DNA of 45,509 bases from Desulfobacteraceae bacterium (GTDB lineage: Bacteria; Desulfobacterota; Desulfobacteria; Desulfobacterales; SURF-7). The first letter of the stretch is position 1, and the number at the start of each line of letters is the position of its first letter. Location of the stretch: NCBI GenBank assembly GCA_003599865.1, contig QZKS01000094.1, positions 1-45,509 of the forward strand, given 5' to 3'. Made by a program: the position numbers and the translations under genes. Positions 2,080-18,760 of this stretch are shown here, one piece after another. The notes beneath the pieces are model-generated. The model had not been told where the DNA came from. It ran no database searches and saw only the letters and a list, made by a program, of their open reading frames with translations.

Positions 2080-2094
2080 CATAGCACAACTATG
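2080..2094. promoter_or_regulatory. Candidate TetR operator O1 (inverted repeat)
   Basis: CATAG-CACAA-CTATG is a perfect inverted repeat with 5-bp arms and a 5-bp centre. Its core ATAG-N5-CTAT (13 bp, 2081-2093) recurs at 2113-2125, 32 bp away centre to centre, which is about three helical turns, so both would face the same side of the DNA. It lies just upstream of the -35 box of the operon promoter. Binding by the TetR protein at 2181 is inferred from position. Confidence 0.6.
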
Positions 2095-2101
2095 AAAAGT
2101 C

Positions 2102-2130
2102 TTGACGATTTAATAGCATGACTATATTAT
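2102..2130 (+). promoter_or_regulatory. Sigma70 promoter of the TetR/acyl-CoA operon
   Basis: TTGACG at 2102-2107 (5 of 6 consensus bases) and TATTAT at 2125-2130 (5 of 6) are separated by exactly 17 bp. Transcription would start near 2137, about 44 nt before the TetR start codon. No other promoter of comparable quality was noticed before the end of the gene series at 14597, so this probably drives the whole operon. Confidence 0.65.
2113..2125. promoter_or_regulatory. Candidate TetR operator O2 between -35 and -10
   Basis: ATAG-CATGA-CTAT repeats the O1 core and lies between the -35 and -10 hexamers, a position where a bound repressor would block RNA polymerase. Together with O1 this is the expected layout for autoregulation by the TetR protein encoded just downstream. 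Confidence 0.6.
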
Positions 2131-2958: not shown

Positions 2959-4575
2959 ATGTATGTCATTGAGAGCAAAATCGATAAACAATCGGATGCG
3001 TTCAAAAAGAATTATGAGGCTATGGAAGCCCTTGTCGGGGATTTGCAGAATGAACTGAAAATCGCCATGGAAAGCAGATCGGGAAAGGCGGTCCAGCGGC
3101 TGGAGGAATCCGGCAAAATGCCGGCGAAAAAAAAATTGGAACTGCTTCTGGATAAAAACACTCCTTTTCTGGAGATTGCTCCTTTGGCGGCAAAGGGATT
3201 GTATGATGGAAAAGTTCACAAGGCAGGCCTGATTTCCGGAATCGGTATGGTGGAAGGACGAGAGGTGTTGATATCCATCAATGACGCAACCATCAAAGGC
3301 GGATCCGCCTATCCCCTGACAGTGAAGAAAAGCATCCGGCTTCAGACCATCGCGATGGAAAATCGTCTCCCGGTAATCTCCTTAATTGATTCGGCAGGAG
3401 CCTATCTGCCCTTGCAGTCAGAGATCTTTCCGGATTCCCATAACGGAGGCAGGACGTTTTACAATCAGGCCAAGATGTCCAAGATGGGCATTCCACAGAT
3501 CGCGGCGGTGATGGGACTGTGTACTGCCGGTGGTGCATACGGTGTTGCCATGTGTGATGATATCGTTCATGTGAAAGGCCATGGCGCTATTTTTTTGGGC
3601 GGACCGCCATTAGTAAGAGCTGCCACTGGTGAGGAAGTGACTGCTGATGAACTGGGAGGAGCCTATCTTCACTGCCAGGAGTCAGGTGTGTCGGACTATA
3701 TTGCAGAGGATGATGCGGACGCCATTTCCATCATACGCAAAATTGTAAAAAACCTGCCGGAAAATGAAAAATCCCGGTTGACCATGATGAAACCGGAGCC
3801 GCCTGTTTATGATCCAAAGGAAATTTATGGCATTGTGAGCCGTGACATCGCAGTTCCGTATGATTGCCGGGAAATTATTGCCAGGATGGTTGACGGAAGC
3901 AGATTTCTTGAATTCAAGGAGCTTTACGGAAGTACACTGGTTTGTGGATGGGCGCATATTCACGGATATCCGGTCGGCATACTCGCGAACAATGGAATCC
4001 TGTTTCCGGAAAGCGCATTAAAAGCCACTCAGTTTATCCAGCTTTGCGATAAACGAAAAATTCCTTTACTCTTTTTGCAGAATATTAACGGATTTATCAT
4101 CGGAAAGGCCTATGAGCAGGGCGGCATCACCAAGAATGGCCATAAAATGGTGAATGCAGTCTCCACGGCGTCGGTACCGAAATTCACGGTAATTGTCGGA
4201 GCTTCTTTTGGTGCCGGTAATTATGCCATGTGCGGACGCGGGTACTCACCTCGTCTGCTGTGGATGTGGCCCAATGCAAAAATCGGTGTCATGGGTGGAA
4301 CCCAGGCAGCAGATGTTTTGATTACCATTACCAATGATCAAAACAAAAGACTCGGCAAGCCGCCCCTGACAAAAGAAGAGGAGCTGTTTCTGCGAAAACC
4401 GATCGAAGATGCAGCGGAAAAAGAAGGTAATGCCTATTATAGTACTGCCAATATATGGGATGACGGCATTCTGGACCCTGCCAAGACAAGAGATACTTTG
4501 GGGCTTGCCATATCCGCAGCTTTGAATGCGCCGATACGGGATGATGTTTACGGACATGGTGTTTTCCGAATGTAA
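2959..4575 (+). CDS. Acyl-CoA carboxylase, carboxyltransferase (beta) subunit, MCC/GCC type
   Basis: The 538-residue, full-length beta subunit transfers CO2 from carboxybiotin to an acyl-CoA. Its N half has the crotonase-like core with the DSAGAYLPLQSEIFPD segment, FYNQAKMSKMGIPQIAAVMG, CTAGGAYGVAMCDD and IFLGGPPLVRAATGEEV. These match the 3-methylcrotonyl-CoA/geranyl-CoA carboxylase branch (MccB/LiuB, AtuC) better than propionyl-CoA carboxylase. The C half contains the NNGILFPESALKATQFIQLC and GASFGAGNYAMCGRGYSPR segments typical of that branch. The usual DSGGANLP is DSAGAYLP here, so the acyl pocket may differ. The substrate is probably a 3-methyl-branched 2-enoyl-CoA; I cannot separate methylcrotonyl from longer isoprenoid chains. 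The gene is followed after 41 bp by the biotin carboxylase gene. Confidence 0.88.
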   Translation: MYVIESKIDKQSDAFKKNYEAMEALVGDLQNELKIAMESRSGKAVQRLEESGKMPAKKKLELLLDKNTPFLEIAPLAAKGLYDGKVHKAGLISGIGMVEGREVLISINDATIKGGSAYPLTVKKSIRLQTIAMENRLPVISLIDSAGAYLPLQSEIFPDSHNGGRTFYNQAKMSKMGIPQIAAVMGLCTAGGAYGVAMCDDIVHVKGHGAIFLGGPPLVRAATGEEVTADELGGAYLHCQESGVSDYIAEDDADAISIIRKIVKNLPENEKSRLTMMKPEPPVYDPKEIYGIVSRDIAVPYDCREIIARMVDGSRFLEFKELYGSTLVCGWAHIHGYPVGILANNGILFPESALKATQFIQLCDKRKIPLLFLQNINGFIIGKAYEQGGITKNGHKMVNAVSTASVPKFTVIVGASFGAGNYAMCGRGYSPRLLWMWPNAKIGVMGGTQAADVLITITNDQNKRLGKPPLTKEEELFLRKPIEDAAEKEGNAYYSTANIWDDGILDPAKTRDTLGLAISAALNAPIRDDVYGHGVFRM

Positions 4576-4616: not shown

Positions 4617-6104
4617 ATGATCAAAAAGATACTGATTGCCAATCGGGGAGAAATCGCATGCAGGATTATGAATACCTGCAAAGAGATGGGGATCGAATCC
4701 GTAGCTGTTTATTCGGATGTGGATCAAAAAGCACTGCATGTTTTAATGGCGGATTATGCGTATTGCATTGGCACATCAGAACCATCACAGAGCTACCTGA
4801 ACATTGAAAAAATACTGGACGTTGCAAAACAAAGCGGTGCGGATGCAATTCATCCAGGGTATGGTTTTCTTGCAGAGAATGCAGCGTTTGCGGCTCGCTG
4901 TGAAGAGGAAGACGTTATTTTTATCGGGCCTTCTTCCAAGGTGATTTCCGAATTGGGGGATAAAACAATTGCCCGGCAGATTATGATTAAGGGCGGTGTT
5001 CCGGTAACGCCGGGAATGATGCAGGCGGAATCGGATCCGAAAATCATGGCCCGGGAAGCCGACAGGATCGGATATCCGGTTTTGATTAAAGCGGCTGCCG
5101 GAGGCGGCGGAAAAGGCATGCGTATCGTTAAACATCCGGAGGAGATTCATGCCGCCTGCGCTGCTGCGTCGAGCGAAGCGGCGTCGGCATTCGGCAATGG
5201 CGCCATTTATCTGGAGAAGTATATTGAAAAACCGAGGCATGTTGAATTCCAAATACTGGCGGATTCCCATGGCAACGTAATCCATCTGCTGGAACGGGAA
5301 TGTTCCATTCAGAGGCGACACCAGAAAATAATTGAGGAAACGCCTTCACCTGCGGTGACACCGGCCCTTCGTGAGCAAATGGGAAACGCTGCTGTCGCAG
5401 CAGCCAAGGCATCCGGATATGTGAATGCCGGAACCGTTGAGTTCCTGCTGGATTCGGAAGGGCATTTTTATTTTCTGGAGGTAAACACCAGGCTTCAGGT
5501 GGAACACCCGATCACGGAAATGGTTACCGGAATCGATATTGTTCGCCGGCAGATTGAAATTGCATCCGGAAAGTCGCTGTCCCTCAAGCAGGAGGATATA
5601 GCCGGTCGTGGTCATGCCATAGAGTGCCGGGTTTATGCGGAAGATCCGGAAAAGGATTTTTTTCCATCACCCGGGAAAATTGTATTTTTAAAAGAACCAT
5701 CCGGGCCGGGTATCCGCAATGACTGCGGGGTCTATACAGACGTTGAGGTTCCGGTGGATTATGACCCGATTATCTCCAAGCTGATTGTTCATGCAGAGAA
5801 CCGGGAAAAGGCCATTCTCAAAATGATCAAAGCCCTGAGTGAATATGTTATTTTAGGGGTTAAGACGCCGGTGCCGTTTTTAATGGATGTGCTGAAGTCG
5901 GAAGCATTTGCTGATGGTGAAACCTATACGGATTTTATCGCAAAACATTTTGAAAAATGGTCTCCCGGTGAAGGAGATATCGATACGGCTTTGATTGCTT
6001 TTGTGGCGGGCGAACTATCCGTAAAAGGCAACCATCAGTTTCAATCATCATCTGCAAATGATGCGTTATCGCCGTGGAAGACTCTTGGGAACTGGAGATT
6101 GTAA
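4617..6104 (+). CDS. Biotin carboxylase subunit of acyl-CoA carboxylase
   Basis: The 495-residue biotin carboxylase uses ATP and bicarbonate to carboxylate biotin on the carrier encoded next. It begins KKILIANRGEIACRI, has GADAIHPGYGFLAENAAFA, the ATP-grasp glycine loop AAAGGGGKGMRIV (about residues 159-171), ERECSIQRRHQKIIEE and the catalytic EVNTRLQVEHPITE block (about 288-301). After the C-terminal biotin carboxylase subdomain it stops, with no carrier domain. In Pseudomonas LiuD and AtuF, by contrast, carboxylase, BT and carrier domains form one polypeptide of about 650-670 residues. A generic fatty-acid AccC is unlikely given the neighbours. Confidence 0.9.
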   Translation: MIKKILIANRGEIACRIMNTCKEMGIESVAVYSDVDQKALHVLMADYAYCIGTSEPSQSYLNIEKILDVAKQSGADAIHPGYGFLAENAAFAARCEEEDVIFIGPSSKVISELGDKTIARQIMIKGGVPVTPGMMQAESDPKIMAREADRIGYPVLIKAAAGGGGKGMRIVKHPEEIHAACAAASSEAASAFGNGAIYLEKYIEKPRHVEFQILADSHGNVIHLLERECSIQRRHQKIIEETPSPAVTPALREQMGNAAVAAAKASGYVNAGTVEFLLDSEGHFYFLEVNTRLQVEHPITEMVTGIDIVRRQIEIASGKSLSLKQEDIAGRGHAIECRVYAEDPEKDFFPSPGKIVFLKEPSGPGIRNDCGVYTDVEVPVDYDPIISKLIVHAENREKAILKMIKALSEYVILGVKTPVPFLMDVLKSEAFADGETYTDFIAKHFEKWSPGEGDIDTALIAFVAGELSVKGNHQFQSSSANDALSPWKTLGNWRL

Positions 6105-6133: not shown

Positions 6134-6658
6134 TTGGATTATAATCTGATCATCAATGATAAAAATATTCCGGTAAATGTGGATCTGGAAGGGGAAGATC
6201 GATTTGTGGTTTCCATCGGAGAGAAAATGATCACAGTCGGATTCGGCAGGATCGGTGATCATCTGCTTTGCCTGGAAGTGAACGGGAAAAAAGTCAATAC
6301 CTATATCGCGGATACGGCGGAAGGAAGAGCGATCTTTTTCAATGGAAAGACCTACCTTGTGAGTGATGCGGATGCGTTGAATCAGTCGGGAAGTAGAAGA
6401 AGCGGCGGTGGGAAAACAATAGATGAGGTTACACCGCCCATGCCGGCAGTCGTTGTTGCGGTTAAGGTCAAAGAAGGGGATGCAGTAAAAAAAGGCCAGG
6501 GAGTGGTTGTGGTATCTGCCATGAAAATGGAGACCACGCTGTTTGCACCTTTTGACGGTACGGTTACAAAAGTGAATGTTCAGGCAGGGAACAAGGTTAT
6601 GCCGGGCGACATTCTTGTTGATATTGAAAAACAGGAAGAGGGTGCAAGTCCGGAGTAA
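6134..6658 (+). CDS. Biotin carboxyl carrier subunit with N-terminal BT-like region
   Basis: The 174-residue protein starts at a TTG (6134) with GGAG nine bases upstream; no ATG is suitably placed. The C-terminal 75 residues are a biotinyl/lipoyl domain with the AMKM motif, biotinylated lysine K131, and the TTLFAPFDGTVTKV and GDILVDIE strands. The first 85 or so residues are beta-rich and resemble the BT (biotin carboxylase-carboxyltransferase linking) region that lies between biotin carboxylase and carrier in fused alpha subunits. A low-complexity SGSRRSGGGK linker joins the two parts. The gene therefore supplies the second half of a naturally split MCC/GCC alpha subunit, 29 bp after the biotin carboxylase gene. 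Confidence 0.85.
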   Translation: MDYNLIINDKNIPVNVDLEGEDRFVVSIGEKMITVGFGRIGDHLLCLEVNGKKVNTYIADTAEGRAIFFNGKTYLVSDADALNQSGSRRSGGGKTIDEVTPPMPAVVVAVKVKEGDAVKKGQGVVVVSAMKMETTLFAPFDGTVTKVNVQAGNKVMPGDILVDIEKQEEGASPE

Positions 6659-6710: not shown

Positions 6711-7490
6711 ATGAGCGAAAAAGATCTTTTATATAAGGTAGACAAGAACATCGCCTATGTAACGATCAACCGGGAAAAGCATCGAAATTCAATCAGCGGA
6801 GAGGCTGTCAGGCTGTTTCTGGAAGTTCTTGACCAGGCCGAGGGTGATCCGGAGGTTCGGGCGATCTGTATCACAGGAGCAGGGGATAAAGCATTTTGTT
6901 CCGGTGCGGACCTTGGGAATGTCATGGCTGGAGGTCAGGGGCAACAGGCAGATCCGCTTCGAAACTATGCAAGGCTTTTAAAACGGCTCACAAGTTTTCC
7001 CAAGCCAACCGTTGCTAAGATTAACGGCTACTGCCTGGCTGGTGGAACCGGTTTTATGCTGGCCTGTGATATCGTGATCGCCAGGGATGATGCCAGGTTC
7101 GGTACACCGGAGGTCAATGTGGGACTCTTTCCGATGATGATCGGCGCATTGATTTTTCGGAATGTGTTGCGGAAAAAAGCAATGGAGATGATTCTTCTGG
7201 GAGAGAAATTAAGCGCGGAACAGGCAATGAATATGGGGCTGGTTACGAGAGTGGTGCCCTTTGAAAATCTTGATGTAGAAGTGGAAAATGTTTTGAAATC
7301 CCTGTCTGCAAAAAGTCCCATTGGAATGAAAATCGGGAAAGAGGCTTTTAGCGCCATGGATATGATGCCGGTGGAAGAAGCGCTTGATTATCTCTGTGAC
7401 AAACTCCGGGAGGTTGCGGCTACGGAAGATGCGGCTGAAGGAATTACAGCCTTCATCGAAAAACGGCAGCCTGTATTTAAAGGAAAGTAA
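6711..7490 (+). CDS. Enoyl-CoA hydratase/isomerase family protein (LiuC/AtuE-like)
   Basis: The 259-residue crotonase-fold protein has the CoA-binding AFCSGADLGNV, the oxyanion-hole segment NGYCLAGGTGFMLACD (from residue 105), and FGTPEVNVGLFPMMIG. Of the two catalytic glutamates of rat mitochondrial hydratase, the second is kept (E134) but the first position is glycine (G114). The same replacement is, as I recall, seen in Pseudomonas methylglutaconyl-CoA hydratase-type proteins, which supports a glutaconyl-CoA hydratase role rather than general beta-oxidation. It follows the carboxylase genes, where the product of carboxylation would be hydrated. AAAGGAGA lies seven bases before the ATG. Confidence 0.83.
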   Translation: MSEKDLLYKVDKNIAYVTINREKHRNSISGEAVRLFLEVLDQAEGDPEVRAICITGAGDKAFCSGADLGNVMAGGQGQQADPLRNYARLLKRLTSFPKPTVAKINGYCLAGGTGFMLACDIVIARDDARFGTPEVNVGLFPMMIGALIFRNVLRKKAMEMILLGEKLSAEQAMNMGLVTRVVPFENLDVEVENVLKSLSAKSPIGMKIGKEAFSAMDMMPVEEALDYLCDKLREVAATEDAAEGITAFIEKRQPVFKGK

Positions 7491-7536
7491 TAGTGATTCA
7501 AAAAGGACTGTTTTTGACCATATAATGGGGGACGGT

Positions 7537-9315
7537 ATGTCTGATAACTCCTTACAAAAAAATGAAAAGCTGATTATTGCCAATTGCAGTGGTTTTTTCG
7601 GTGACCGGTTTTCAGCCGCAAAAGAGATGGTGGAGGGCGGTCCGATTGATGTGTTGACCGGTGACTATCTGGCAGAACTGACCATGGCGATCCTGTTTCG
7701 GCAGACCATGAAAGATCCGAATCTCGGCTATGTTTCCACGTTTTTAAAACAGATGGAACAGGTAATGGGACAATGCCTGGATAAAAACATAAAAGTGGTT
7801 GCCAACGCGGGCGGATTGAATCCAAAGGGATTGGCTGCCAAACTGGAAGAGCTGGCCGGAGTTTTGGGAATTCATCCGAAGATTGCCTATATCGAGGGTG
7901 ATAATTTGCTCCCAAGGATACCCGAACTTCAGGAAAAAGGAGAAGCCTTTATTCATCTGGATAAAGGGATCAGCCTGAAAGATGCAAAAGCACAGCCCAT
8001 ATCGGCAAATGCTTATCTCGGGTGTTGGGGGATTGCCGAAGCCCTGAAACATGGAGCTGATATTGTCGTGGGAGGAAGATTGGCCGATGCCGCTCTGGTA
8101 ATGGGGCCTGCTGCATGGAGATTCAACTGGAAGAGGTATGAATGGGACAAACTGGCAGGTGCTGCGGTGGCTGGTCATATCATTGAGTGCAGTGCGCAAG
8201 CTACCGGAGGAAATTATTCTTTTATTGAAGAAGTACCTTCGTTTAAAAATGTCGGTTTTCCCATTGCCGAGATGTTTGCAGACGGGTCCAGTGTGATTAC
8301 AAAGCATCCGGGAACCGGCGGACTGGTTTCCGTCGGAACCGTTACCGCACAGTTGATCTATGAGATCAGGTCTCCCCGATATTTGACTCCGGATGTGGCT
8401 GCACGATTTGATACCATTGATATTTCGCAGGTTGGGCCGGATCGGGTTCGAATTGCCGGTGTATGCGGCGAACCGCCGACGGATACGGCAAAAGTATGCA
8501 TCAACAATCTGGGTGGTTATCGAAATTCCATGACCATCGTCCTGACCGGACTGGATATCGAACAAAAGGCAAAGATTTTTGAGGATGCCCTTGTCGACAG
8601 TCTCGGCGGCAGGGAAAACTATGAAAAATTCGAAGTCGACCTCACACGTTCCGATAAGACGGATCCCCGAACCAATGAAGAGGCTTTTGCCTATCTGAAA
8701 CTTTCGGTTCTCGATCCGGACCCGAAAAAGGCGGCCGGGTTTTCTTCCAAAATCGTGGAACTGGCATTGGCCAATATTCCGGGATTTACGGCTACGGCGC
8801 CTCCGGGAAAAGGGGCGCCTTCTATTATTCATTGGCCGACACTGGTATCCGTCAAGCATATTACGCAAAAACTTTATGTGGATCAGAAGGAAATCGAAAT
8901 TGAACATACGGACATTCCGGCGGAAAGCTATTCTTTTGATCCTATCGTCGTGAACCCGCCTGAATATCCTGAGGGAGAAACGAAAAAAGCACCTTTTGGA
9001 AGAGTGTTTGCCACCCGATCCGGAGATAAAGGAGGAAATGCCAATCTGGGTGTCTGGGCAAAAACCCCGGAAGCGTATGCATTTCTGGAAAAATTTCTAA
9101 CCGTTGAAAGGCTCAAGGATATCCTCCCGGATATGAAGTCTTATGAGATTGAGCGATATGAAATGCCCAATTTACTGGCGGTGAATTTCTATATCAAAGG
9201 AGTACTCGGTGACGGTGTGGCGGCGTCGTTCCGGAGCGATCCCCAGGCCAAAACCCTGGGTGAGTATCTGCGGGCAAAAATGGTTGAGATGCCGGAATCC
9301 ATTATTCCGGGATAA
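7537..9315 (+). CDS. AtuA-family (acyclic terpene utilisation) protein
   Basis: The 592-residue protein belongs to the AtuA/DUF1446 family: EKLIIANCSGFFGDRFSAA at the start, GPIDVLTGDYLAELTMAIL, VVANAGGLNPKGLA, and the core GADIVVGGRLADAALVMGPAAW. A C-terminal AtuA-associated domain (about residues 480-592) contains ATRSGDKGGNANLGVWA. Biochemical function is not established; the gene is needed for growth on citronellol/geraniol in Pseudomonas and also occurs beside methylcrotonyl-CoA-type carboxylases elsewhere. The operon shows no HMG-CoA-lyase-like gene, so a role in processing the branched 3-hydroxyglutaryl-CoA product is conceivable but unproven. The frame is open back to 7384; I chose the ATG at 7537 because GGGGGA lies just before it, while the ATG at 7525 lacks a site. 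Confidence 0.87.
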   Translation: MSDNSLQKNEKLIIANCSGFFGDRFSAAKEMVEGGPIDVLTGDYLAELTMAILFRQTMKDPNLGYVSTFLKQMEQVMGQCLDKNIKVVANAGGLNPKGLAAKLEELAGVLGIHPKIAYIEGDNLLPRIPELQEKGEAFIHLDKGISLKDAKAQPISANAYLGCWGIAEALKHGADIVVGGRLADAALVMGPAAWRFNWKRYEWDKLAGAAVAGHIIECSAQATGGNYSFIEEVPSFKNVGFPIAEMFADGSSVITKHPGTGGLVSVGTVTAQLIYEIRSPRYLTPDVAARFDTIDISQVGPDRVRIAGVCGEPPTDTAKVCINNLGGYRNSMTIVLTGLDIEQKAKIFEDALVDSLGGRENYEKFEVDLTRSDKTDPRTNEEAFAYLKLSVLDPDPKKAAGFSSKIVELALANIPGFTATAPPGKGAPSIIHWPTLVSVKHITQKLYVDQKEIEIEHTDIPAESYSFDPIVVNPPEYPEGETKKAPFGRVFATRSGDKGGNANLGVWAKTPEAYAFLEKFLTVERLKDILPDMKSYEIERYEMPNLLAVNFYIKGVLGDGVAASFRSDPQAKTLGEYLRAKMVEMPESIIPG

Positions 9316-9369: not shown

Positions 9370-10521
9370 ATGGGAAGTGAGATGTATTTTACCAAAGAAC
9401 ATGAAATGGTGCGTAAGGCGATTCGAGACTTCGTGAACAAGGAAATCAATCCCTATGTGGACGAATGGGAAGAGGCAGGAATCGCACCATTGCATGATCT
9501 GTTTAAAAAAATGGGTGATCTGGGGTTTTTGGGATTGCGATATGATGAAAAATATGGCGGGGAAGGTCTCGATTACTGGCATGAGCTGGTGCTTCTGGAA
9601 GAAATCGGACATATCCGCTGTGGCGGAATTCCCATGGCGATTGCTGTTCAAACCAATATGGCAACACCAGCCATTGCCGAATTCGGCAGCGAATATCTGA
9701 AGGAGACCTATCTCACGCCTGCCATCAAAGGGGATATGGTTGCAGCGATTGCCGTAACAGAACCGGATGCAGGTTCCGATGTTGCAGCCCTGAGAACCAC
9801 AGCGACAAAAGAAGGGGATCACTATATCATCAATGGCTCCAAGACCTATATCACCAATGGAACCCAGGCGGATTTTTTAACCCTTCTGGCACGGTCAAGC
9901 GACGTCCCCGGATATCACTCATTCAGCCTTTTTGTTGTACCGACCAATCTTCCGGGGTTTCAAGTCAGCAAGAAACTGGATAAACTGGGAATGAGAAGCA
10001 GTGATACCGCAGAGCTTTACTTTGACAACATGAAAATACCGGCGGAAAATCTGATCGGCGTCGAAGGAGAAGGATTTATCCAGCAGATGCAGCAGTTTCA
10101 GCATGAGCGTTTTGCCTGCATGCCCATGACCTATATCGGTGCCAGGGATATGATCGATGAGACCGTAAAATACCTGAGAGGCCGGATTGTTTTTGGCAAA
10201 CCATTGATAAAAAAGCAGGTCCTCCGTCATCGTCTTGTCAAATGGCTGACGGATATCGAATGCCTGCAGCAACTCACCTACCATATTGTACGCATGAAAA
10301 TGGCAGGCAAGGATGTTACCAAGGAAATATCCATGGGCAAACTGTTCAGCGGCAATCTTCTGGATGAAATGGCCGGCGGATGTCTGCAGATGTTCGGCGG
10401 CATGGGTTTTATGAATGAGATGCCGATCTCCCGATACTATCGGGATTCCAAACTGATCTCCATTGGCGGCGGTGCCAGTGAAGTGATGAGCGAGATTTTG
10501 TCCAAACTGGAAGGTTTTTAA
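9370..10521 (+). CDS. Acyl-CoA dehydrogenase 1
   Basis: The 383-residue FAD enzyme oxidises an acyl-CoA to the 2-enoyl-CoA and passes electrons to ETF. Typical blocks are the N-terminal helical domain (MYFTKEHEMVRKAIRDFVNK), AIAVTEPDAGSDVAALRTTA, GSKTYITNGTQADF, and the C-terminal LQMFGGMGFMNEMPISRYYRD. The site of the usual catalytic Glu in the YEGT loop is Gly here (SIGGGASEVM), whereas helix G carries QHERF with E246. That is the isovaleryl-CoA/long-chain dehydrogenase arrangement, consistent with a branched substrate (isovaleryl- or citronellyl-CoA-like). GGAGG sits six bases before the ATG. It is the sixth of nine structural genes after the regulator. Confidence 0.9.
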   Translation: MGSEMYFTKEHEMVRKAIRDFVNKEINPYVDEWEEAGIAPLHDLFKKMGDLGFLGLRYDEKYGGEGLDYWHELVLLEEIGHIRCGGIPMAIAVQTNMATPAIAEFGSEYLKETYLTPAIKGDMVAAIAVTEPDAGSDVAALRTTATKEGDHYIINGSKTYITNGTQADFLTLLARSSDVPGYHSFSLFVVPTNLPGFQVSKKLDKLGMRSSDTAELYFDNMKIPAENLIGVEGEGFIQQMQQFQHERFACMPMTYIGARDMIDETVKYLRGRIVFGKPLIKKQVLRHRLVKWLTDIECLQQLTYHIVRMKMAGKDVTKEISMGKLFSGNLLDEMAGGCLQMFGGMGFMNEMPISRYYRDSKLISIGGGASEVMSEILSKLEGF

Positions 10522-10535
10522 CCGGGAGAAGGCAG

Positions 10536-11342
10536 ATGAAAGATATTTGCAAAGATCTTTATGACGAATATGAGTTGCTTGACTCTATTGTTTCCGGCCT
10601 CAGCGATGCGGAATGGGAGATGGTCACCCCGTTTTACGGATGGACCATCAAGGATGAGATCAGCCATATCGCCTATTATGACGAGGCTGCACGATTATCG
10701 GCAACGAGTCAGGAAGCATTCACCTTGCATATGACGAAAATGCTGGAAGGATTCACCACTTTTGACGATATGCACGCCAAGGTCAATCAGGTCGGGGGAC
10801 GCCTATCCGTACCGGACCTTTTGGGATGGTGGCGGAAAGAACGGAATCAGCTTATTGCCGAATATCAAAAACTGGATCCAAAAGATCGTCTGCCCTGGTA
10901 TGGGCCGACCATGAGTGCCAGATCATCGGCCACGGCGCGTCTGATGGAGACATGGGCGCATGGACAGGACATTGTGGACGCACTGAAGGTGACCCGTTCC
11001 GGAACCGATCGGCTGAAACATATTGCCCATATCGGCGTATCCACATTCGGGTGGACGTTTAAAAACCGGGGGATGGAAATTCCCGGGAAAAAGGTCCAGG
11101 TAGTATTGACGGCTCCTTCCGGTGATATCTGGTCCTGGAATCCGGAAGAGAAGAATGAGATGATCAAAGGCGCTGCTCAAGATTTTTGTCTGGTTGTTAC
11201 CCAAAGACGCAATGTACTGGATACGGAATTGGAAGTAACAGGGAAAACTGCACAGGAATGGATGAAGATCGCCCAGGCCTTTGCAGGGCCGGCGGAGGAT
11301 GGACCGTTGCCTGGGGTGAGAAAGTTGTCAATCAAAATATAG
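10536..11342 (+). CDS. TIGR03084-type DinB/maleylpyruvate-isomerase-fold metalloprotein
   Basis: The 268-residue protein begins with a DinB-like four-helix region typical of the mycothiol-dependent maleylpyruvate isomerase N-terminal domain. A likely metal triad is visible: H44 (ISHIAYYD), E138 and H142 (METWAHGQDI), the expected E-x3-H. The C-terminal third (about 170-268) is a separate alpha/beta domain. The whole resembles the uncharacterised TIGR03084 family. Family relatives use mycothiol in actinobacteria, a thiol not known from Desulfobacterota, so another thiol or no thiol must be assumed. It sits tightly between the two acyl-CoA dehydrogenase genes (14 and 18 bp gaps), so a role in the same pathway is very likely although its reaction is unknown. 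Confidence 0.75.
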   Translation: MKDICKDLYDEYELLDSIVSGLSDAEWEMVTPFYGWTIKDEISHIAYYDEAARLSATSQEAFTLHMTKMLEGFTTFDDMHAKVNQVGGRLSVPDLLGWWRKERNQLIAEYQKLDPKDRLPWYGPTMSARSSATARLMETWAHGQDIVDALKVTRSGTDRLKHIAHIGVSTFGWTFKNRGMEIPGKKVQVVLTAPSGDIWSWNPEEKNEMIKGAAQDFCLVVTQRRNVLDTELEVTGKTAQEWMKIAQAFAGPAEDGPLPGVRKLSIKI

Positions 11343-11360: not shown

Positions 11361-12521
11361 ATGGATTCCAGTAAGCAGCCGAAAAAGACATACCAGAAAT
11401 ACTTTACCAAAGAGCATGATCTGTTGCGAAGTGCCCTGAGGGATTGGGTGAAAAAAGAGATTCTCCCGAACATCGAGGAATGGGAAGAGGCCGGGGAATT
11501 CCCCAGGGAATTATATGAAAAGGCAGGAGAGCTGGGCTTTCTGGGGATCGGTTTCCCGGAAGATGTCGGCGGCGCTTCCGGTGATGTTTTTGATGCCATC
11601 ATTCTCAATGAAGAGCTGATGCGATCCGGTTCCGGCGGGCTTGCCGCAGGGCTTGGCTCTCTCGGAATCGCCTTACCGCCGATTATCCATAAAGGCACGC
11701 CGGAACAGAAGGAAAGATTCGCCAAACCGGTGATTGCCGGCAAGAGAATCGCCGCTCTTGGTGTTACAGAGCCTGGAGGCGGGTCTGATGTGGCCAACAT
11801 CCGGACCACTGCTGTCCGGGACGGTGATCATTATATTGTGAACGGCAGCAAAACCTTCATTACCAGCGGCGTCCGGGCGGATCAGCTGACCTGTGCCGTC
11901 CGTACCGGAGGCGAGGGAGCCCATGGCATCAGTTTCCTGGTAATTGAATCCGATACACCCGGGTATTCGGTCGGGAAAAAATTAAAAAAAACCGGATGGT
12001 GGGCATCGGATACGGCCGAGATTTTTCTGGATGATTGCCGGGTTCCCGCGGAAAATCTGATCGGTGAAGAAAATATGGGATTCTACACCATCATGGAGAA
12101 TTTTCAGATGGAACGGCTTCAGCTTTGCGTCATGGCCAACATGACCGCCCAGATGGCACTAGGGGAAGCCATGAAATATGTAAAAGAGCGCAAGGCGTTC
12201 GGAAAATCCCTTTCCGGATTTCAGGTGACGCGTCATAAACTTGCGGACATGGCTACCCTTGTTGAGGCCAGTCGTGAGTTCACCTATCGGATTGCGGCCA
12301 AAATCGATGCCGGCGAAAATCAGGTAAAAGAGATTTCCATGGCCAAGAATTTTGCCTGCAGCATCAGCGACAAGGTTACCTATGATGCGGTTCAGCTTTT
12401 CGGCGGTTATGGTTATATGCGTGGTTATCTCGTGGAAAGGCTGTATCGGGATAACCGGATTCTGTCTATCGGCGGAGGGACCACTGAAATTATGAAGGAG
12501 ATCATATCCAAGTTGATGTAG
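11361..12521 (+). CDS. Acyl-CoA dehydrogenase 2
   Basis: The 386-residue acyl-CoA dehydrogenase is a paralogue of the one encoded at 9370. It shows KYFTKEHDLLRSALRDWVKK, GVTEPGGGSDVANIRTTAV, GSKTFITSGVRADQLT, RKAFGKSLSGFQVTRHKLADM and LFGGYGYMRGYLVERLYRD. The catalytic base again appears to be in helix G (FQMERL, E251), with Gly at the other family position (SIGGGTTEIM). Having two dehydrogenases of the branched/long-chain class in one operon suggests two oxidation steps on one carbon skeleton, or two related substrates. The operon contains no ETF gene, so electrons presumably go to an ETF encoded elsewhere. Confidence 0.9.
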   Translation: MDSSKQPKKTYQKYFTKEHDLLRSALRDWVKKEILPNIEEWEEAGEFPRELYEKAGELGFLGIGFPEDVGGASGDVFDAIILNEELMRSGSGGLAAGLGSLGIALPPIIHKGTPEQKERFAKPVIAGKRIAALGVTEPGGGSDVANIRTTAVRDGDHYIVNGSKTFITSGVRADQLTCAVRTGGEGAHGISFLVIESDTPGYSVGKKLKKTGWWASDTAEIFLDDCRVPAENLIGEENMGFYTIMENFQMERLQLCVMANMTAQMALGEAMKYVKERKAFGKSLSGFQVTRHKLADMATLVEASREFTYRIAAKIDAGENQVKEISMAKNFACSISDKVTYDAVQLFGGYGYMRGYLVERLYRDNRILSIGGGTTEIMKEIISKLM

Positions 12522-12596
12522 TTTCCGGTTGACGGTATCCAGAGCCGGCGCTTGTGTCATTTTCATAATGTAACCTGTTTGATGAAAGGAAATTCA

Positions 12597-14597
12597 ATGT
12601 ATCCGTATTTATCCAGTCCGATTACCATCAATTCCCTTACGGTCAGGAATCGAATCATTTACCCGGCTCTTGGCGTTCTGTATTCCTATGATCGAAAACT
12701 GAATGATCGGTACTATCATTTTTTTGAGGAAAAGGCCCGGGGTGGTGCGGGGATTGTAACGGTAGGGCCGGTGGGGGTTGATTTTATCGGTTCGGGCATT
12801 ATTGTCCTTTCTCTGGCAGAGGATGAGGCGATTCCTTCATTTGTCAAACTGACATCCCTTATCAAAGAACAGGGGGCAGCACCCTGGATTCAGCTTTTCC
12901 ACGCCGGAGCATACTCCCATCCGTTTATCATCGATGGAAAAGAACCCATTGCCCCGTCACCGATTTTTTCAAAATATTCCAAGGCAACACCCAGGGAAAT
13001 GACACGGGAAGATATTGAAACGGTTCAGACCGCGTTTGTCCGGGCGGCTCTTCGGGCCAAGGAGGCCGGGTTTGCCGGTGTGGAAATCATCGCCTCCGGA
13101 GGGTATCTCATTACCCAGTTTGTTTCTCCCCTTCGGAATCAGCGAACCGATCAATATGGCGGAACATTTGAGAACCGGATGCGCTTCCCACGGGAATTGA
13201 TTGAAAGATTGCGGGAAAAGCTGGGACCGGATTATCCGCTTACCATCCGCATGGCAGGGAATGATTTTGTTCCCGGCAGCAATACCGATGCGGAAACACC
13301 GGCGATCGCACAGGTATATGAAAAGGCAGGAGTGGATCTGATCAACGTGACCGGGGGCTGGCATGAGACCAAGGTTCCGCAGCTTCCCATGGATCTGCCG
13401 CGCTCCGGCTTTTCTTATCTGGCAGCGAATATCAAGAAAGTGGTATCTGTTCCGGTGGTGGCTTCCAACCGGATTTCCGATCCGGATGCGGCGGAAAAAA
13501 TCCTGCAGGACGGATGCGCCGATATGGTCAGTTTGGGAAGGGTTCTGATCGCCGACCCCTATTGGCCTCAGAAGGCATTTCAAGGGAAAAAAGAGGAAAT
13601 CCGTCCGTGTGTGGCCTGCTCACAAGGCTGTACGGATGAGATTTTCAGTGGAAAACCGGTTTTCTGTACGGGCAATCCCATGGCCGGATTTGAGGGCGAG
13701 CGGAAAATCAAAAAAACCGCCCAGCCCCAAAAGGTCATGGTGATCGGTGCCGGAGCCGCCGGACTGGAGGCAGCCGTAACCGCGTCTATTGCGGGCCATC
13801 AGGTAACGGTTTATGAAAAAGGGAATGATATCGGCGGACAGCTCTATATTGCCGGAGCCCCTCCGCATAAAAATGAAATCTGGGAATTTATCCGGTATTA
13901 CCGGGCCATGATTCGCAAATACAATATTCCGGTGCGCCTGAATACCGCAGTGGACCGATCGTTCATTCAAAATGAAAAACCCGATCACATCATTGTGGCG
14001 GAAGGTGCTGAAGCGCTGATTCCACCGATCCAGGGTGTGGATGATCCATGTGTATTATCCGCATGGGATGTGCTGAAAAACAATCCCTTGCTGGGAAAAA
14101 ATGTCGCGATTATCGGCGGCGGAGCTGTGGGCCTGGAAACCGCTCTTTTTGTGGCGGACCGGGGTACGATCAGACCGGATGTACTTCATTTTTTGTTTGC
14201 TTATGATGCGGAACCCATAGACAGGCTTCGGGATTTGATGTTTCATGGTACTTCCCAGGTGACGGTTTTTGAGATGCTTCCCAAGGTCGGCAAGGATGTG
14301 GGAAAATCCACCAAATGGGTTTTGTTCGGCAATCTGGAGAAACACGGCATTCAGATCCGAACCCAGGCCAAAGTGTGTTCCATCCATCATGGGACAGTTG
14401 TGTATGAGACAGATGGAAAAACAGAAAAAATGCAGTTTGACAATGTAATTCTGGCATCCGGTTCAAGGCCGGTCCAGCGGCTTTCAAAGGAAATTGCAGA
14501 ACTCGGCATACCATATAAAACCGTCGGAGATTGCGTTCAGGTTGGAAAGATCAATGATGCGATTCATGGCGGATTTTTGGCTGCATTGGATATTTAA
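12597..14597 (+). CDS. Old-yellow-enzyme family NADH:flavin oxidoreductase, 2,4-dienoyl-CoA reductase (FadH)-like
   Basis: The 666-residue protein has the FadH architecture: an N-terminal FMN-binding TIM barrel (about 1-340; RNQRTDQYGGTFENRMRFP is the typical block), then four cysteines for a 4Fe-4S cluster (C338-x2-C341-x3-C345-x11-C357), then a FAD/NAD(P) domain with VMVIGAGAAGLEAA and NVAIIGGGAVGLETALF Rossmann motifs. The enzyme class reduces conjugated dienoyl-CoA or enoate double bonds and would suit removal of extra double bonds in an isoprenoid chain; the exact substrate is unknown. A TTG further upstream (12552) is in frame, but the ATG at 12597 has AAAGGA six bases before it. It is the last gene of the operon. 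Confidence 0.87.
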   Translation: MYPYLSSPITINSLTVRNRIIYPALGVLYSYDRKLNDRYYHFFEEKARGGAGIVTVGPVGVDFIGSGIIVLSLAEDEAIPSFVKLTSLIKEQGAAPWIQLFHAGAYSHPFIIDGKEPIAPSPIFSKYSKATPREMTREDIETVQTAFVRAALRAKEAGFAGVEIIASGGYLITQFVSPLRNQRTDQYGGTFENRMRFPRELIERLREKLGPDYPLTIRMAGNDFVPGSNTDAETPAIAQVYEKAGVDLINVTGGWHETKVPQLPMDLPRSGFSYLAANIKKVVSVPVVASNRISDPDAAEKILQDGCADMVSLGRVLIADPYWPQKAFQGKKEEIRPCVACSQGCTDEIFSGKPVFCTGNPMAGFEGERKIKKTAQPQKVMVIGAGAAGLEAAVTASIAGHQVTVYEKGNDIGGQLYIAGAPPHKNEIWEFIRYYRAMIRKYNIPVRLNTAVDRSFIQNEKPDHIIVAEGAEALIPPIQGVDDPCVLSAWDVLKNNPLLGKNVAIIGGGAVGLETALFVADRGTIRPDVLHFLFAYDAEPIDRLRDLMFHGTSQVTVFEMLPKVGKDVGKSTKWVLFGNLEKHGIQIRTQAKVCSIHHGTVVYETDGKTEKMQFDNVILASGSRPVQRLSKEIAELGIPYKTVGDCVQVGKINDAIHGGFLAALDI

Positions 14598-17284: not shown

Positions 17285-17374
17285 ACAAAAGAGTTGGTAT
17301 ATTGGGCCTTGGGCAGCGTTTGATGCCGCCGGAAGACAGATCCTAACATTTATTTTTCCTTGAACATTTTGAAT

Positions 17375-17390
17375 CGGCATGGGGTTTGCA
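17375..17390 (+). promoter_or_regulatory. Sigma54 (RpoN) promoter of the MerR-repeat gene
   Basis: CGGCATGGGGTTTGCA fits TGGCACG-N4-TTGCA closely: GGCA and the following G are kept, TTGCA is complete, and the GG to GC distance is the required 12 bp. Transcription would start near 17401, directly before the GAGGAGGA ribosome-binding site and the ATG at 17417. Confidence 0.6.
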
Positions 17391-17416
17391 AAAATTGTCC
17401 CTCTGAGGAGGAAGCC

Positions 17417-18760
17417 ATGTTTGAAAAAAATTATTATACACTTCGTGGTGTAGCAGATGAGCTGAATATCGGGGAATCCACCATCCAGTACTGGCAGGAT
17501 CAATATCATTCCTGGATTCCTTGCAAGGACAATGAAAAAGAGAAATGGTATCCCCGTCAGGCCATCGGGATCTTGCGTTTTATCATGGAAAGTGCCAACT
17601 CCGGTATGAATGAAGGGGATATTGAGAAAGAGCTTTCCATCCGATTTCCCATGGTGAAAGAATCTTATAAACAGGAAATTCCGTTGGGCGGCATGGAGAG
17701 CGGGATGCAGGTCATGCACGGAGATACCGTTTCCGGAGTCCTTAAGGGGTTGCTGGAGGGATTGAGCAGGCAACAGATGAGGATTGCAGATGCCCAGGAG
17801 CGGAGAGCTGCCGCAGAGGAAAGAAAAGCGTCGGCAATGGAAAAGAGGGCGGCAGCGCAAAAGCTGATGGCGGATGCATTAAACAACGTAGCGTTTGCCT
17901 TGCAGCATACCGTGTTTCTCGGCTCAGGCGAAGGTTCCCGGGGCATCCTGAATAATAGGACTTCCATGCCCAATGAAGATCCGGCAGTAGAGACAGAGAA
18001 AAATCATGGGATGGATACCCCGGATGAAGAGGTGCTGGATATCGAAATGCAGGAGAGAGTTGTCAAGTCTCTTCTCGACGATATTTCCGATCCGGATGAC
18101 CTGTCCGAATTTTTGACGGACTCATCGGAAGAAGCCGTATCGGAGCCGGATGATCTGTCGGAGCTTCTTGAGGGGGCGGAAGAGAAATCGGAACAACCGG
18201 AATCGGAACCGGATGACCTTTCGGAACTCCTGGGAGATACGGAAGAGAAATCATTATCCGGCATGGATGATCTCTCCGGACTTTTGACGAATTCATCGGA
18301 AGAAACAGTATCGGACCTGGATGATCTGTCGGAACTGATCGGAGGCCCGGAAGACAAATCAGTGCCGGCTCCCGGTGATTTATCTGAACTATTGGGAAGT
18401 CCACCGGCAGATGCGGATAACCCATTAAATGAATCATTGGAAACGATGCCCGGTTCCGTTGAAGAGTCCGGCAGACACGAAAAGGACAATACGGCCATTG
18501 CTGAAACCGCCCATGAAGCCAGACAGGCTGACGCTATTCCTGCGGAACAGCCCAAAAAGATACCCGGTGACTATAAATCCAAAATCATTGCCCTGATTAT
18601 CCAGTTGAAAGAGAAAAAGGGAATGGGGATTGATGATGTTACGGAATACATGAATGCAAAAGGGTATAAGACCATATCCGGGAACGAAAAATGGGATTCC
18701 AGGACCATTACTCAAATTTTTGAACATGTAACGGCAATACGATCTGAAAATAAAGGATAA
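17417..18760 (+). CDS. MerR-type HTH protein with acidic DDLSELL repeats and a recombinase-like C-terminal segment
   Basis: The 447-residue protein has four parts. Residues about 5-75 are a MerR-like winged helix (YTLRGVADELNIGESTIQYW, then WYPRQAIGILRFI). About 110-155 is an Ala/Glu/Arg-rich probable coiled coil (RRAAAEERKASAMEKRAAAQ). About 225-330 has six copies of [D/G]DLS[E/G][L/F][L/I], spaced 18, 21, 18, 18 and 18 residues, strongly acidic and probably disordered. The last 55 residues (ALIIQLKEKKGMGIDDVTEY ... WDSRTITQIFEHV) resemble the small helical DNA-binding part of serine recombinases, though there is no catalytic domain. Two DNA-contacting ends joined by an acidic linker suggest an architectural or regulatory protein. 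GAGGAGGA precedes the ATG. Function unknown. Confidence 0.7.
   Translation: MFEKNYYTLRGVADELNIGESTIQYWQDQYHSWIPCKDNEKEKWYPRQAIGILRFIMESANSGMNEGDIEKELSIRFPMVKESYKQEIPLGGMESGMQVMHGDTVSGVLKGLLEGLSRQQMRIADAQERRAAAEERKASAMEKRAAAQKLMADALNNVAFALQHTVFLGSGEGSRGILNNRTSMPNEDPAVETEKNHGMDTPDEEVLDIEMQERVVKSLLDDISDPDDLSEFLTDSSEEAVSEPDDLSELLEGAEEKSEQPESEPDDLSELLGDTEEKSLSGMDDLSGLLTNSSEETVSDLDDLSELIGGPEDKSVPAPGDLSELLGSPPADADNPLNESLETMPGSVEESGRHEKDNTAIAETAHEARQADAIPAEQPKKIPGDYKSKIIALIIQLKEKKGMGIDDVTEYMNAKGYKTISGNEKWDSRTITQIFEHVTAIRSENKG
18095..18400 (+). repeat. Six in-frame 54-63 bp repeats coding for DDLSELL units
   Basis: The GAT-GAY-CTG-type codons that begin each unit occur at 18095, 18149, 18212, 18266, 18320 and 18374 (the last unit reads GGT-GAT-TTA). 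Spacings are 54, 63, 54, 54 and 54 bp. DNA identity between units is moderate, so they are old duplications under protein-level selection rather than a fresh tandem expansion. Confidence 0.8.

Follow-up and report, generated by a model that had tools for sequence, protein, structure and literature searches.

The window analysed here is a 45,509-nucleotide stretch of contig QZKS01000094.1 from a Desulfobacteraceae bacterium, near the start of which a gene for a TetR-family regulator (tetR) is followed by nine genes, all on the same strand and reaching position 14597. The features of this locus are listed below by coordinates, strand, and basis of assignment.

2081 to 2093, no strand: candidate upstream operator site (U), ATAGCACAACTAT; kept in 3 of 3 same-genus relatives, with AG-N5-C at matching spacing in 31 of 38 orthologues
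2102 to 2107, plus: −35 element TTGACG; TTGA is invariant in the composite-operator alignment, though selected by the rule used to find these sites
2113 to 2125, no strand: candidate downstream operator site (D), ATAGCATGACTAT, in the −35/−10 spacer; repeat symmetry and conservation in relatives
2125 to 2130, plus: −10 element TATTAT, 17-bp spacer; promoter pattern scan
2181 to 2855, plus: TetR-family regulator, YsiA/FadR-like, proposed repressor; domain and structure-sequence matches
2959 to 4575, plus: carboxyltransferase subunit, methylcrotonyl-CoA-carboxylase-like; domain and structure-sequence matches
4617 to 6104, plus: biotin carboxylase subunit; domain matches
6134 to 6658, plus: biotin carboxyl carrier protein, start codon provisional; domain match
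6711 to 7490, plus: enoyl-CoA hydratase; domain match
7384 to 9315, plus: AtuA-family protein, its open frame extending back into the preceding gene; open reading frame list and domain match
9370 to 10521, plus: acyl-CoA dehydrogenase 1; domain match
10536 to 11342, plus: TIGR03084-family protein; 330 bits against a cut-off of 248
11361 to 12521, plus: acyl-CoA dehydrogenase 2; domain match
12552 to 14597, plus: FMN/FAD oxidoreductase, likely start ATG 12597; domain matches

We take the real start of the AtuA-family gene to lie probably beyond 7490, and the oxidoreductase to resemble 2,4-dienoyl-CoA reductase. The regulator carries a TetR_N helix-turn-helix at residues 14–59 (56.6 bits, above the Pfam cut-off of 24) and a C-terminal YsiA-like TetR_C_4 domain of Pfam, and it scores 96.3 bits against the NCBIfam FadR equivalog model, which is below the cut-off of 200. 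Against solved structures, the carboxyltransferase scored 630 bits with methylcrotonyl-CoA carboxylase (3u9r) and 465 bits with geranyl-CoA carboxylase (5ikl), and by sequence it is closer to the former; a score equal to that with 3u9r (631 bits) was obtained with 9tps, which is deposited as propionyl-CoA carboxylase. Because promoter-like patterns (18 versus 15.9 in shuffles) and terminator-like patterns (14 versus 14.6) are no commoner within the operon than in shuffled sequence, it is from gene spacing that we infer transcription of the ten genes as a single unit, whose role is probably the breakdown of branched acids. Elsewhere in the window, an open reading frame at 17360–18760 encodes a MerR-type helix-turn-helix with a weak Recombinase match near its end.

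A preliminary description of this DNA reported that ATAG-N5-CTAT occurs twice before tetR with centres 32 bp apart, one copy just upstream of the −35 element and the other between −35 and −10. Re-reading the sequence placed both exactly as claimed: U is centred on 2087 and D on 2119, a 19-bp spacer separates them, and the D repeat touches the first base of TATTAT. The same description spoke of a good sigma70 promoter, and TTGACG and TATTAT, 17 bp apart, are indeed the best (10/12) of seven promoter-like patterns between 1760 and 2200; since shuffles of this region average 3.7 such patterns, however, the promoter call by itself is weak evidence. A run of nine G (2167–2175) lies between AAGGAG (2155–2160) and the tetR ATG, and because the G-rich stretch before the ATG is shorter in same-genus relatives, this run could slip and thereby tune translation of the regulator.

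The exact repeat is rare in the organism's own genome. A genome-wide search, which had been suggested as a check, recovered ATAG-N5-CTAT at 20 places in 5.01 Mb, the promoter pair being the only close one; the reversed pattern occurs at 180 places in the same genome, so the repeat is rare rather than common. If 20 sites were scattered uniformly, about 0.004 pairs within 50 bp would be expected by hand arithmetic, and the next closest pair among the matches listed is about 2.3 kb apart. The pair is not a product of chance.

To characterise conservation, we searched 389 genomes of the order for the TetR protein; 57 contain a relative at E 1e-40 or better. Among 64 listed places, 38 with at least 47% identity (47–100%) and upstream DNA present formed the orthologue set (a 39th, L067, was left out because its upstream DNA is missing), and seven of the 25 places with identity of at most 41% formed the paralogue set. 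Within the DNA fetched, roughly 1.5 kb or more, a carboxyltransferase gene follows tetR at 26 of the 38 orthologue loci and at none of the seven paralogue loci. Loss of the repeats in relatives had been named as grounds for abandoning the proposal; all three same-genus relatives (protein identity 84–86%) keep both sites in a degenerate form, with ATAGAACAACCAT at the U position and ACAG, AGAG or ATAG followed by TATGACTGT at the D position, and they also keep other intergenic stretches. Full ATAG/CTAT arms were rejected as the general motif, since what the relatives share is AG-N5-C(T) with an outer A and T, that is, a core of A-x-A-G-T-nnn-A-C-(T)-x-T.

We then described the arrangement by a geometry rule, in which one AG-N5-C lies 13 bases into TTGA(C/T) and a second lies 31 or 32 bp before it. 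Both sites are present in this arrangement upstream of 31 of the 38 orthologues (spacing 31 in 27 and 32 in four), in none of 3800 dinucleotide shuffles, and in none of the seven paralogues; under a relaxed rule (offset 5 to 15, spacing 25 to 40), 34 of the 3800 shuffles have both sites. Because the rule was written after reading these same sequences, the figure of 31 in 38 is a description more than a test, and because many orthologue rows come from two families, the rows are not independent. Grouped by genus and family label, nine of the 14 genera and five of the six families have at least one member with both sites. This recurrence lends support to the proposal that the repeats are an operator of the TetR protein. 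In a scan of named genomes covering 62 loci, by title mostly Desulfobacterales metagenome assemblies, 27 loci were new by their last 60 upstream bases and three of these have the arrangement; it is found in three of the seven new orthologue loci with 45–50% identity and upstream DNA, and in none of the 19 more distant new loci (below 44.5% identity; actinobacterial and other). Of those seven, L111, L121 and L123 have before tetR what looks to us like the end of another gene, and L124 has just 157 bases of upstream DNA.

The same sequences bear on whether the pair is simply a by-product of a conserved strong promoter, its dyads having no role, an explanation that the AT-richness of the region and the membership of the promoter elements in the conserved block would favour. 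The fetched loci contain 2750 distinct TTGA[CT] contexts; with offsets from 5 to 21 compared, AG-N5-C has 71 occurrences at offset 13 and 18 to 41 at each of the others, and 38 of these contexts carry both sites, with per-locus counts equal to the operators already known. Removing those two-site cases leaves 33, within the range of the other offsets, so ordinary TTGAC contexts have no preference for offset 13. Moreover, although U is not part of the core promoter, two of its columns that the rule leaves free favour A, column 5 in 30 of 30 sequences and column 13 in 25 of the 30. A by-product of this kind is accordingly a highly improbable account of the pair.

Seven orthologues depart from the rule (L009, L010, L040, L041, L045, L054 and L060). 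L009 and L010 each have a single strong site, an exact ATAG-N5-CTAT that keeps the D register, with no clear U site, and in L010 this site lies about 240 bases before tetR; L040 likewise keeps the downstream site alone and in register, with no clear upstream site. These three loci, together with the less symmetric right half of U, would suit a version of the operator reading in which strong binding occurs at D only, U having an accessory role or acting in activation instead of repression. Against this version, the 31 orthologues above retain U at its 31- or 32-bp distance, as do pathway genes that are detached from tetR, and we regard the version as possible though somewhat doubtful. In L054 and L060 the downstream site is one base off (offset 14), and a possible partner lies 31–32 bp further downstream (AAGTCTCAGACTT in L060) instead of upstream, which would suit a pair able to slide along the promoter. 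Neither site is present in L041 and L045, both from Desulfatibacillum, where operator turnover is possible. Within 100 bases before tetR they have in its place a different inverted-repeat-like stretch, TGAATATTTTCAAAATATATTCA in L041, after TTGACA.

As the geometry rule was framed after the sequences had been read, a composite model built on the sequence of 30 composite operators provides a better test. Run on the 389 genomes at E 0.001, it gave 49 matches spread over 40 of them, of which 39, in 30 genomes, score at least 27.8 bits; 30 of these are the training sites, and of the nine outside training one is at a tetR (G270), five stand before carboxyltransferase genes, two before TIGR03084/acyl-CoA dehydrogenase genes, and one lies at a contig edge (G058). 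The ten weaker matches comprise two at one-site tetR loci (G282 and G007) and eight that are chance-like. The latter loci, all below 27 bits (L198, L199 and L201–L206), were rejected as operators, having unrelated open reading frames or none behind them, with the proviso that L204 (G106) may be a true site cut off at a contig end. The partial composite operator at L204:2357-2387, like the whole one at L197:145-194 (G058), lies at a contig end with the gene that it would serve outside the contig; no carboxyltransferase was found in the G058/G106 genus at E 1e-150. The exact pattern with 31-bp spacing gave 39 matches in 32 of the 389 genomes (26 at tetR, four at detached pathway genes, one at the G058 contig edge, and eight elsewhere); since eight lie elsewhere and the reversed control gives 17 by our own count, the pattern alone lacks specificity.

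Applied to the window's own genome, the composite model has one full-length match, the window site (E 5.1e-8), and no wider regulon was found there, the other 14 matches being partial and at E 0.017 or weaker; the exact pattern with 32-bp spacing gave one match, as did its control. In this assembly, then, the regulator's own gene is the only one with the operator in front of it; the assembly is 97% complete in 100 contigs, so that a gap could hide a second copy.

Matches outside training reveal that the gene set is split in several genomes. In G256, G361, G354, G352 and G377 the match ends 99 to 116 bases before the start of a homologue of the carboxyltransferase with 74–76% identity. G256 has an AMP-binding ligase and the FMN oxidoreductase behind tetR, and its carboxyltransferase-biotin carboxylase operon lies about 13.5 kb away with its own composite operator; in G354, G352 and G377 the corresponding operon and operator share a contig with tetR at a distance of 20 to 40 kb, and in G361 they are on a different contig from it. 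G374 and G380 have a match before TIGR03084/acyl-CoA dehydrogenase genes apart from tetR, an AMP-binding ligase-type gene coming first behind the operator in G380. Because the detached carboxyltransferase operons bear their own operator, the operator goes with the pathway genes as well as with the gene for the regulator, and these split operons are the strongest evidence from sequence for an action in trans.

It could be argued that another regulator, encoded elsewhere, binds these sites and that the TetR protein acts at a different place. Single-site and site-less orthologues exist, and the further intergenic stretches kept in same-genus relatives would offer room for such an arrangement. The distribution of the operator speaks against it, however: of the 30 genomes in which the model reaches 27.8 bits, 29 carry tetR and one, G058, does not; 31 of the 39 such matches stand before tetR (30 of them training sites), and the operator is absent from all seven paralogues examined. 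We therefore consider a different regulator unlikely.

By sequence, the closest solved structures to the TetR protein are those of Bacillus FadR/YsiA (1vi0, 3whb, 5gpa and 5gp9), which match over most of the chain, whereas the recognition region reads SEASIYDYF in the window protein and ADGTIYLYF in FadR, and the FadR operator is a different, longer palindrome. TetR of Tn10, too, has two tandem tet operators spaced by about three turns within a single control region, as in the window, but these are 19-bp operators in a divergent efflux-pump system. The preliminary description drew a parallel with AtuR, and AtuR and RdmA of Pseudomonas are indeed TetR-family repressors beside an AtuA-containing acyl-CoA carboxylase cluster. 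The parallel holds for the design, two 13-bp inverted repeats in the target promoter, but breaks down in operator sequence, spacing, and gene order. According to PMC9973270, AtuR binds AGCAAGCGCTTGG and CCAAGCGCTTGCT with 40 bp between them, and RdmA the same sites with 42 bp between them; here the core is AxAGTnnnACTxT with sites 31–32 bp apart, and the window has ATAGCACAACTAT and ATAGCATGACTAT with their 19-bp spacer. AtuR of P. aeruginosa acts on a divergent neighbour 280 bp away, as stated in PMC3511530, whereas the window's tetR leads the carboxylase genes in the same direction. The carboxyltransferase differs from that cluster too, in being nearer to methylcrotonyl-CoA than to geranyl-CoA carboxylase. 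Finally, the pathway type appears related to that controlled by LiuR and LiuQ, a comparison made by description and judged from the methylcrotonyl-CoA-carboxylase-like subunit; in PMC5343134, which lists both for branched-chain amino acid use, LiuR is MerR-type and LiuQ is TetR-type, no class studied other than betaproteobacteria has LiuQ, and just five of the regulators covered have orthologues in Deltaproteobacteria.

Taken as a whole, the sequence makes it very probable that the repeats form a paired operator to which the product of the first gene binds as a repressor, a local autorepressor being the best reading of the TetR protein. What the sequences show directly is that the sites exist, that their geometry is fixed, and that they recur both at tetR and ahead of pathway operons detached from it; how they might work is suggested by TetR and FadR biology. 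One TetR dimer would occupy each 13-bp dyad, and at 31–32 bp, about three turns, both dimers would lie on the same helix face and might co-operate. Dimer D would fill the −35/−10 spacer and dimer U the stretch immediately before −35, RNA polymerase would thereby be kept off the promoter, and the protein would repress its own gene and the nine genes behind it, in keeping with the autoregulated control of all ten genes that had been predicted. Release would probably be brought about by an acyl-CoA of the pathway, as the relationship to FadR/YsiA suggests.

A broader reading, which we put forward tentatively, is that the two dimers form a rigid module whose 31–32 bp spacing is selected as firmly as the sites themselves, that this pair slides along the promoter, and that further operons have their own copy in genomes with a divided gene set. 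If so, this would constitute a regulon for branched acyl-CoA carboxylation across Desulfobacterales, one that is absent from the literature surveyed by title and abstract start; among the best matches judged in this way, with mostly open-access coverage, we found no description of a tetR/paired-operator regulon.

The paired operator is real and conserved, and it is of an ordinary kind, that of a TetR-type autorepressor, with a two-site geometry that is unusually constant. The repeats thereby become a testable regulon, defined by its motif, the constant distance between sites, its regulator and its target operons; it is seen in five of the order's family groups, known largely from metagenome-assembled genomes. 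With the operator seen ahead of pathway genes even where the regulator gene lies apart from them, it offers a handle on how these anaerobes control a pathway of the AtuA/methylcrotonyl-CoA-carboxylase type.
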